Shown piece by piece: positions 50,287 through 51,832 of a DNA stretch of 51,832 nucleotides. The stretch is taken from contig JAGBTG010000008.1 of the NCBI GenBank assembly GCA_017631435.1, forward strand, positions 1 through 51,832, written 5' to 3'. Below the pieces are notes generated by a model. It saw only the letters and a list, made by a program, of their open reading frames with translations. It did not search any database and was not told the DNA's origin. The translations under genes were made by a program, and so were the position numbers. The stretch is from Bacteroidales bacterium (lineage in GTDB: Bacteria > Bacteroidota > Bacteroidia > Bacteroidales > UBA932). Each line of letters opens with the position of its first letter. Positions within the stretch are counted from its first letter, which is position 1.

Positions 50287-51162
50287 ATGGGGAATTTGGC
50301 TTTCAGCACACCGGTAGAAATAAAGAGAAGCAATTTGGAACTTGGCTACGGGAGCAAGATTATGATGCTTGGCTCATGCTTCACCACCGAGGTGGGCAAA
50401 ATCATGCAGGACTACAGGTTTGATGTAATGGTGAACCCGTTTGGAGTCCTGTATAACCCTGCATCAATACTGTCATCTGTAAGAAGAATGGTATCAGACA
50501 CCCGTTTTACCTTTGATGATACTGTTGAAACCAACCCGTCAGACAAGGGCGTGGCAAGAAAATATGCAAGCTTTTACCACCACAGCTCTTTTGCACGCCT
50601 CACCCCTGAGGAATTTCTGGAGAATGCCAATGCTCACCTAGCCAAAGCACATAGATATCTTCAGGAAGCAGATACTGTAATCATCACACTTGGCACTGCT
50701 TGGATATTCAGACATATTGAAAAGCAGATCATAGTCTCAAATTGCCATAAAAGGAGTGCAAAGGAATTCAACAGGGAGCTTCTCACTGTAGAAGAATGCA
50801 TGAACTGCCTGCAGGAGATTGCAGATCTTCTCCCCCACAAGAAAATAATTTTCACCGTAAGCCCTATCAGGCACTTCAAGGACGGAGCCCACGGCAACCA
50901 GATAAGCAAATCAACATTACTGCTTGCAGTAAATGGAGTTATCGGTTCATGCGCCAATTGTAGCTATTTCCCTTCATACGAAATAATGATGGATGAGCTG
51001 AGGGATTACCGTTACTATGCAGAGGACATGGTACACCCCTCTCCCCTTGCAGTAAAATATATCTTTGAAAAATTTACTCACGCCCACATTTCACCTGACG
51101 CAATTAAACAAATGGAAAGCAATATGCGTTTAACTAAAGCAGAGAGTCATATTCAGAAATGA
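50287..51162 (+). CDS. GSCFA family protein
   Basis: A 291-residue protein of the GSCFA family, named after the LGSCFTTEVGKIM motif seen here at about residues 28-40. It is SGNH-hydrolase-like, with a possible catalytic Ser in GSCF and Asp/His near DMVHPSPLAV. The start is the ATG at 50287, with AAGGAG 5 bases upstream. A GTG further up lies inside queG. It has no signal peptide, so it is cytoplasmic, and the substrate is unknown. It is translated directly after queG. HFKDGAHGNQISKS is also conserved in the family. Confidence 0.9.
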   Translation: MGNLAFSTPVEIKRSNLELGYGSKIMMLGSCFTTEVGKIMQDYRFDVMVNPFGVLYNPASILSSVRRMVSDTRFTFDDTVETNPSDKGVARKYASFYHHSSFARLTPEEFLENANAHLAKAHRYLQEADTVIITLGTAWIFRHIEKQIIVSNCHKRSAKEFNRELLTVEECMNCLQEIADLLPHKKIIFTVSPIRHFKDGAHGNQISKSTLLLAVNGVIGSCANCSYFPSYEIMMDELRDYRYYAEDMVHPSPLAVKYIFEKFTHAHISPDAIKQMESNMRLTKAESHIQK

Positions 51163-51198
51163 TTCTCAAAGTTTAAGTTAAACAAAATTGTTTGTGCC

Positions 51199-51369
51199 AT
51201 GAAAAAATACGAATGCGACGCATGTGGATGGGTATATGACCCTGAATACGGCGATCCCGACGGAGGCATCCCTCCAGGTATCCCTTTTGATGAATTGGGC
51301 CCAACATGGGTATGTCCAGGCTGCGGCTTGGGCAAAGAGGCCTTCTTTGAAATCAAAAAAGGGCACTAG
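51199..51369 (+). CDS. Rubredoxin
   Basis: A 56-residue rubredoxin, a small one-iron electron carrier. The sequence begins MKKYECDACGWVYDPEYGDP and ends EIKKGH. The four iron ligands are Cys6-x2-Cys9 and Cys39-x2-Cys42 (WVCPGCGLGKEAF). The GGIPPGIPFDELGPTW middle is the standard rubredoxin loop, and length is normal. It lies 36 bases after the GSCFA gene with no terminator between them, so it may be co-transcribed. In anaerobic Bacteroidetes it usually serves oxygen and peroxide detoxification. The end converges on the rRNA-linked repeat array. Confidence 0.95.
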   Translation: MKKYECDACGWVYDPEYGDPDGGIPPGIPFDELGPTWVCPGCGLGKEAFFEIKKGH

Positions 51370-51414
51370 AGACCGCGTCAACTGCCTGGGAGAGCAGGTA
51401 GCACACTGCAGTAC
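51370..51414. repeat. Decayed remnant of the 5S-linked repeat
   Basis: GGGAGAGCAGGTAGC (51388-51402) matches, with one change, the GGGAGAGTAGGTAGC that ends spacer B. The preceding GCGTCAACTGCC resembles the GCGTCTGATGACGCC of the full units. This looks like a third, eroded spacer unit, directly after the rubredoxin stop. Confidence 0.6.
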
Positions 51415-51449
51415 AAAAAAAAGAGGATAACCATTTCTGATTATCCTCT
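51415..51449 (-). terminator. Terminator copy in repeat unit A
   Basis: On minus AGAGGATAA pairs with TTATCCTCT across a 10-base loop and is followed by eight T. It faces the rRNA direction only, since the plus side has no T-run. Confidence 0.8.
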
Positions 51450-51564
51450 GAAGGTTGGCGGCTACCTCTTTTGTCAACGACTCACGCCGGGTGCGGCTCC
51501 CGGGCTTCCGTTACACACGCCCTCCGCCGGGCGTCTGATGACGCCGTGAGAGTAGGTAGCTGCA
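51415..51564 (-). repeat. 150-bp repeat unit A (rRNA-terminator copy plus GC-rich spacer)
   Basis: This unit is a copy, with four mismatches in 150 bases, of the one at 51565-51714. It contains a terminator hairpin (51415-51449), the last bases of 5S rRNA (GGTTGGCGGCTACC on plus) and a GC-rich spacer that folds on itself (for example GGCGTCTGATGACGCC). Differences are at 51478, 51490, 51547 and 51562. Confidence 0.9.
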
Positions 51565-51599
51565 AAAAAAAAGAGGATAACCATTTCTGATTATCCTCT
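51564..51599 (-). terminator. Terminator copy in repeat unit B
   Basis: Same 9-bp hairpin (stem 51572-51580 with 51591-51599) followed by nine T on minus. Confidence 0.8.
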
Positions 51600-51714
51600 G
51601 AAGGTTGGCGGCTACCTATTTTGTCAACGGCTCACGCCGGGTGCGGCTCCCGGGCTTCCGTTACACACGCCCTCCGCCGGGCGTCTGATGACGCCGGGAG
51701 AGTAGGTAGCTACA
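51565..51714 (-). repeat. 150-bp repeat unit B (rRNA-terminator copy plus GC-rich spacer)
   Basis: The second full unit, exactly 150 bases after unit A. Its spacer ends with GGGAGAGTAGGTAGC on plus (51696-51710), which is the same 15 bases as the 3' strand of the 5S rRNA on minus (plus 51761-51775), in inverted orientation. The third copy of the common part continues into the real 5S gene up to 51768. Confidence 0.9.
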
Positions 51715-51749
51715 AAAAAAAAGAGGATAACCATTTCTGATTATCCTCT
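51714..51749 (-). terminator. Terminator directly after the 5S rRNA
   Basis: Same hairpin (stem 51722-51730 with 51741-51749) and T-run on minus, immediately 3' of the 5S sequence. It is the primary terminator of the rRNA operon, followed by two further copies. Confidence 0.85.
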
Positions 51750-51751
51750 GA

Positions 51752-51832
51752 AGGTTGGCGGCTACCTACTCTCCCACTTGGTATAGCAGTACCATCGGCG
51801 CTAACGGGCTTAACTTCTCTGTTCGGGATGGG
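51752..51832 (-). rRNA. 5S ribosomal RNA, 3' part (runs off the window)
   Basis: The minus strand reads CCCATCCCGAACAGAGAAGT, then TTAAGCCCGTTAGCGCCGAT and GGTACTGC, then GTGGGAGAGTAGGTAGCCGC. These are the standard inner and 3' parts of bacterial 5S rRNA. About 80 of the usual 110 bases are present, and the 5' part, with the 23S and 16S genes, would lie to the right. The exact 3' end (between about 51751 and 51756) is inferred. Confidence 0.95.

Follow-up and report, generated by a model that had tools for sequence, protein, structure and literature searches.

The end of a bacterial rRNA operon is usually treated as settled, consisting of a 5S gene and a terminator. The stretch of DNA analyzed here (the window) is a Bacteroidales contig of 51,832 nucleotides, the entire contig C54 of a 2.17-Mb assembly with 59 contigs and 88% completeness. 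It ends in a 5S gene followed by three terminators at regular spacing, with inverted pieces of 5S sequence and GC-rich spacers between them. This raises the questions of how such a boundary could have been built and what it would do to RNA polymerase leaving the operon.

Anatomy of the terminator array

A tandem repeat search (TRF) of the window returned a repeat of period 150 at 51415-51768, with 98% matches and a score of 680, the runner-up scoring 64. Within it are three hairpins on the minus strand, at 51722-51749, 51572-51599, and 51422-51449, each with 12 pairs and a T-run and spaced exactly 150 bp apart, as the initial annotation had described. All three have the makeup of an intrinsic terminator, that is, a stable hairpin with a T-run directly after it, lying in the direction of the upstream gene. 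A scan of 51150-51832 for terminator-like sites gave four, namely, these three and one weak plus-strand site, compared to a mean of 0.7 in shuffled sequences. From the contig end inward, the features are as follows.

51753-51832, minus strand: 5S rRNA gene, 3' part, cut by the contig end (Rfam RF00001, 48.2 bits)
51722-51749, minus strand: intrinsic terminator 1 (12 pairs, loop of 4; T-run reaches 51714)
51696-51710, plus strand: inverted 5S piece of unit 1, GGGAGAGTAGGTAGC as read on the plus strand (exact copy of 15 nt; fold z, -9.4)
51619-51695, minus strand: R1 copy 1 (covariance model match at 51617-51698, 100.1 bits; this copy is also in the model's alignment)
51600-51618, minus strand: 5S tail and terminator leader, copy 2, TAGGTAGCCGCCAACCTTC
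51572-51599, minus strand: intrinsic terminator 2, identical to terminator 1
51546-51560, plus strand: inverted 5S piece of unit 2 (one mismatch)
51469-51545, minus strand: R1 copy 2 (covariance model match at 51467-51548, 98.8 bits; this copy is also in the model's alignment)
51450-51467, minus strand: 5S tail and terminator leader, copy 3
51422-51449, minus strand: intrinsic terminator 3, identical to terminators 1 and 2
51388-51402, plus strand: inverted 5S piece of unit 3, GGGAGAGCAGGTAGC, with no R1 after it (one mismatch)
51199-51369, plus strand: rubredoxin gene, convergent with the rRNA operon (Pfam PF00301, E value 5.6e-19; synteny, the same neighbor in three sister species)

The 53-nt terminator segments are identical in all three copies. 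The two full 150-bp units differ at 4 of 150 positions (51468/51618, 51480/51630, 51547/51697, and 51562/51712), all outside the terminators, and this direct comparison gave exactly the number first reported. Also borne out were the inverted pieces of the 5S 3' end, described earlier as exact or one-base variants: after each T-run, 15 nt from near the 3' end of the 5S gene recur inverted on the plus strand, matching at 15/15, 14/15, and 14/15 nt in units 1, 2, and 3. When unit 1 is folded as a single strand, an outer stem of 15 bp (51696-51710 pairing with 51761-51775) closes around the entire terminator, and none of 200 shuffled sequences was equally stable; the corresponding z value for unit 2 is -6.6. 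Units 1 and 2 each hold a GC-rich spacer of ~77 nt. Unit 3, which had been thought to contain a decayed third spacer, does have the inverted 5S piece but no recognizable spacer element, the model of the spacer described below matching the window only twice.

Two other rRNA operons of the same genome were available for comparison. The terminator of the operon on contig C2 is identical to that of the array (119 nt at 100%), and that of the operon on C45 differs. An Rfam search of the array raised only the 5S gene to the gathering score.

The rubredoxin stretch was matched in 5 of 38 relatives of the same genus. In three of these sister species (G024, G007, and G006), the rubredoxin gene adjoins a 5S end with one terminator and neither array nor R1; the other two (G015 and G036) have the stretch with no exact 5S tail beside it. 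Because three sister species keep the junction with a single terminator and without R1, the array is probably recent. At the rubredoxin-5S junction, no relative was seen to combine a terminator and an inverted tail without tandem duplication.

The spacer is a dispersed structured repeat

The spacer had been described as unrelated and structured, and its being unique to this one locus would have counted against that picture. It is instead a copy of a dispersed repeat, here called R1. It recurs five more times in the window's own genome, on contigs C26 (a full copy and a partial one), C56, C28, and C27, and same-genus relatives have copies too. Fifteen copies were aligned, which defines R1 as an element of ~80 nt with four helices that show compensatory changes, 97.0% of the cells being paired. 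The covariation score was 0.221, compared to a mean of 0.058 in shuffled alignments (0 of 500 as high) and 0.009 to 0.030 when the pairing partners were slid. A covariance model built from this alignment matched 26 of the 199 family genomes, from 6 of 25 genera. Genomes with a match had 1 to 15 of them, and these are lower bounds because the filters were strict and 23 candidates were scored per genome. R1 is at times tandem, with three copies 110 bp apart in one genome (G239) and 127 bp apart in another (G168).

Beyond the family, a degenerate R1 pattern retrieved 33 stretches from the genome_contigs collection, 30 in Bacteroidales records and 3 in unrelated genera; in 22 of the 30 Bacteroidales records, the titles name herbivore gut samples. 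The stretches in Cupriavidus, Bryobacterales, and Streptosporangium were set aside as chance, as the remainder of R1 is, judged by eye, missing from their flanks. Nothing in genome_contigs matched an exact 25-nt spacer pattern, no viral contig carried the degenerate pattern, and a query with 80 nt of R1 matched no plasmid or phage record. We dropped the idea of R1 as an integron attC-like site because its right end has no constant core.

Insertion is best seen at the C27 site. There, the flanking genes are shared with three sister species (G006, G007, and G024) that have no R1, and in two of these the terminator is clearly the same as well; past its T-run, the window's genome continues with R1 and another ~100 bases. 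R1 is also missing from five relatives at the C28 site, a weaker comparison because their flanks have diverged. R1 thus shows what is expected of a mobile repeat, being present in one genome and absent from its relatives at a given site, at C27 and less firmly at C28. For flank tests, we used the 32 of 52 unique copies that were full length and had enough flank. In 8 of 32 copies, a convergent terminator had its T-run fused, to within 2 nt, to the right end of R1, compared to 34 of 1,360 control tests (Fisher P = 2e-6); the left end was so fused in none of 32. A looser test, counting any terminator at ≤60 nt, was weaker than the fusion test (12 of 32 copies, compared to 27 of 144 control windows). 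By these comparisons, R1 is an inserting repeat that often lands beside terminators. The two copies in the window are unlike the eight fused ones, as it is their left end that faces the 5S terminator, 28 to 29 nt from the start of the T-run.

Outer inverted arms (score of ≥14) flank 13 of 32 copies, compared to 0 of 32 with reversed and 3 of 32 with permuted sequences, but direct repeats reached 7 of 32. Three sequence types occur among the arms: the 5S tail in the window (2 copies), a GTCCCCC type in this genus (4 copies), and a GCC..AGAACC type in genus g11 (7 copies). With respect to the features of MITEs, the outer inverted arms differ between loci, and neither a target duplication nor a transposase was established.

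Two side observations concern the settings of R1. In genome G005 (locus L052), two copies lie in tandem at ~340 bp directly behind a 5S terminator, ahead of a gene that by eye is htpG-like. At loci L005, L013, and L048, R1 is nested in a larger hairpin element with GTCCCCC...GTGATTTG arms, an arrangement that occurs once in the window's genome (G000) and three times in G007.

Inverted copies and second terminators at other 5S ends

We collected 5S ends across the family by an exact 21-nt tail, which retrieved 55 of 249 genomes; those with no assembled or identical tail are thus unrepresented. Rows alike over the 120 nt that follow the tail were treated as one, by which two like operons of G047 count once, and G005 and G006 were added by hand. 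This gave 108 rows, of which 106 were testable, one having no T-run and one being too short.

An inverted copy of the 5S end or leader (score of ≥11) was present within 60 nt after the T-run at 18 of 106 ends, compared to 1 of 106 for reversed, 2 of 106 for direct, and 0 of 106 for complement controls. These bracketed ends are spread over 17 genomes and 7 genera. When downstream stretches were swapped between ends, 129 of 2,120 reached the threshold, as relatives share tails and some flanks, and for the same reason the 18 ends cannot be taken as independent of one another. The 5S tail proper is inverted in five of them (G000, G022, G047, G049, and G160), over 15 to 22 nt; the other 13 mainly have the stretch between 5S and hairpin, the leader, in inverted form. 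In genus g14, comparison by eye found that leader and inverted copy covary between genomes (CAAAGCC/GGCTTTG, CAGGCC/GGCCTG, and CAAGCC/GGCTTG), whereas at one end of this genus, L249, the leader differs with no matching change in the inverted copy.

A second terminator copy scoring ≥18 was found at 8 of 106 ends from four genera (G000, G022, and G014 of genus g1; G047 and G214 of g10; G226 of g21; and G235 and G265 of g5), and reversed controls peaked at 13. Seven of these eight ends were also bracketed (Fisher P = 9.4e-6). This cutoff was set after the scores were known, but the association persisted at lower ones; at ≥16, 9 of 106 ends had a second copy and 8 of the 9 were bracketed, and at ≥14, 9 of 12 were. 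The seven tandem ends other than that of the window's genome are without R1, several having other hairpin-forming spacers, and R1 is therefore not needed for such arrays. The single-contig genome G047 has the same kind of layout, with another spacer, at two rRNA operons. Among the open-access papers retrieved, none had a title or abstract opening that described rRNA terminators, bracketed or in tandem, accompanied by inverted 5S tails, and passages of PMC12306157 likewise contained nothing on such ends.

Exact inverted tails were found in 2 of 295 genomes of the order, the window's genome and G409, which belongs to another family. In the latter (L340), the 5S terminator is followed directly by what by eye is the C-terminal end of a tyrosine recombinase (integrase) gene; as the match sits in this apparent gene end, we discounted it as probably a coincidence. 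Separately, a second sequence of the GAACCGACG...AAGCGAG type, alike by eye, follows the inverted 5S tail at three loci from two genera (L158 and L161 from G047 and L162 from G160). Other spacers behind 5S terminators, with CCCTCCC...GGGAGGG or CCCCCTTCC...GGAAGGGGG hairpins, occur at L175, L227, L251, and L254 and are perhaps another widespread repeat.

Origin and possible action of the array

Taken together, the parts of the array are ordinary, and it is their assembly that is unusual and recurrent. The account we favor, with moderate confidence and from comparison of sequences, is that the array is a locally multiplied boundary of the rRNA operon, in which template switching provoked by the hairpin, entry of R1, and tandem duplication would have followed one another, and which would terminate RNA polymerase in steps. 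The terminator hairpin may have led replication to switch templates and so to copy the 5S end in reverse complement immediately beyond the T-run. R1, as an element prone to settle beside terminators, would then have entered, and tandem duplication would have multiplied the unit of terminator, inverted tail, and R1. Identity among the copies could have been kept through recent origin or gene conversion.

Template switching has been described by Monttinen and Loytynoja (PMC8794818) as a source of reverse-complement repeats and of new stems in rRNA. The likeness to the window is that a reverse-complement copy of nearby sequence produces a new stem, and such a copy of close-by sequence at a hairpin is what the 18 of 106 5S ends display. 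The switches described there are within microRNA loci and rRNA genes, whereas here they would have occurred repeatedly behind the rRNA terminator, with tandem duplication in addition.

As to action, polymerase leaving the operon would meet up to three intrinsic terminators, so that run-through toward the convergent rubredoxin gene would fall stepwise, and the outer stem could form only in transcripts already past a terminator. The array is thus probably a stepwise fail-safe terminator facing a convergent gene. The initial annotation had offered a stepwise terminator cassette as one of three readings; what stands of it is the anatomy, that is, three complete terminators here and tandem second terminators at 8 of 106 5S ends. 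Intrinsic (rho-independent) terminators are used in tandem at the ends of rRNA operons, and the array resembles these in having more than one hairpin with a T-run in series behind the operon. It differs in that its copies are identical and at a fixed period, an inverted 5S piece brackets each one, and a dispersed repeat occupies two of the gaps.

Alternatively, the bracket itself might be under selection. The run-through 5S 3' strand and its inverted copy could form an RNase III-type substrate by which precursors are trimmed or destroyed, or the DNA could take up supercoiling behind this heavily transcribed operon by forming a cruciform. The binding of gyrase by some REP arrays, the 15-bp outer stem with its z value of -9.4, the recurrence of brackets in 7 genera, and the joint changes of leader and inverted copy in genus g14 all speak for selection of some kind. 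The compensated arms of g14 fit selection and repeated template switching alike, however, and the uncompensated leader of L249 speaks against strict selection. As 88 of 106 ends are also under the threshold, we consider a selected bracket unlikely. We give a somewhat slimmer chance to a broader version, in which bracketed terminators are a recurrent device of the family: the inverted 5S tail would capture the run-through 5S 3' end in a cleavable duplex, and terminator-seeking R1 and other small repeats would spread and multiply the units.

The array could also be a relic of recombination between oppositely oriented rRNA operons that left an inverted 5S fragment, later homogenized. In favor of this earlier proposal, the units are homogeneous, the inverted pieces of the array derive from 5S, and the C2 operon has the identical terminator. 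But the spacer is a repeat from elsewhere and not rRNA, and the survey found only 15 to 22 nt of 5S inverted at five ends and mainly leader at the other 13, which points to a local event at the hairpin. We regard such a relic as very unlikely.

The suggestion that the spacers encode small structured RNAs, set free between one terminator and the next, draws on the R1 pairing, which is kept by compensatory change, but it fares worse still. The two window spacers fold little or no better than shuffled sequences (z values of -1.6 and -0.7, with 14 of 200 and 46 of 200 shuffles equally stable), and R1 acts as an inserted repeat. Nor was a promoter-like site found near the array: 51150-51832 contains no sigma-70-like promoter, and 51341-51832 contains no match to the -33/-7 pattern of Bacteroidales-type promoters. 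A small-RNA role is most improbable. Equally hard to credit is an assembly artifact at a repeat-rich contig end, despite the contig ending inside the 5S gene and a 150-bp period near short-read length, as the differences between units sit at fixed positions, sister species share the synteny of the flank, and the two like-built operons of single-contig G047 argue against artifact as a general cause.

At this locus, then, the rRNA boundary has been rebuilt with inverted 5S or leader sequence, with a terminator that was copied, and with a dispersed repeat; other genera have related layouts with other spacers. For the study of hairpin-driven template switching, such rebuilt and recurrent boundaries make rRNA operon ends a natural choice. 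R1, a defined element for which sites with and without it are known, is suited to tests of insertion next to terminators.

Affinities of R1 and candidate mobilizers

R1 resembles the REP/BIME sequences mobilized by TnpA-REP (RAYT) in being a short palindromic intergenic repeat that is sometimes tandem. It differs in being about 80 to 130 nt long, with several hairpins, in low copy, and rarely next to a Y1 transposase gene. As defined in PMC3733652, GTAG/CGTC REPs are palindromes of 20 to 40 nt with an unpaired GTAG or CGTC tag; in R1, of ~80 nt and four helices, CGTC varies where present and lies inside a stem. REP copy number is usually over 100 per genome (PMC2817692), and the R1 counts, as lower bounds, are below this. 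Bacteroidetes TnpA-REP genes (subclass 2.6) are reported to be flanked by "atypical secondary structures" that are also found elsewhere in the genome (PMC6006769).

We looked for R1 near matches to Y1_Tnp in two sets, which overlap in three places (G100 and G101 being the same as G128 and G111). R1 lay within ~1.5 kb at 0 of 12 loci (from 20 matches) in one set and 1 of 22 loci (from 22 matches) in the other. The link to RAYT is weak, with no clear transposase partner for R1. The one R1 copy found near a RAYT-like Y1 transposase gene is in G008 (L311, 712-859), ~470 bp from the open frame.

Group IIC introns insert in association with terminators, and R1 shares with them a position beside intrinsic terminators. 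It is far too short for such an intron, and in an Rfam search of eight R1-carrying loci, the only families to reach the gathering score were those of rRNA and tRNA.

Genes matching PDDEXK_2 (Rpn-type) were a further candidate, with R1 present at 5 of 30 loci (30 of 34 matches being covered). As three of these are copies of a single long unit within one genus, PDDEXK_2 was not adopted as the mobilizer. The g11 loci L278 (565-660, 928-1023, and 2455-2550), L271, L292, and L296 have R1 ~400 to 500 bp upstream of the genes for these Rpn-type nucleases, in the same orientation. At L282, in genus g1, both R1 and PDDEXK_2 are present, in an arrangement unlike that of the g11 loci.
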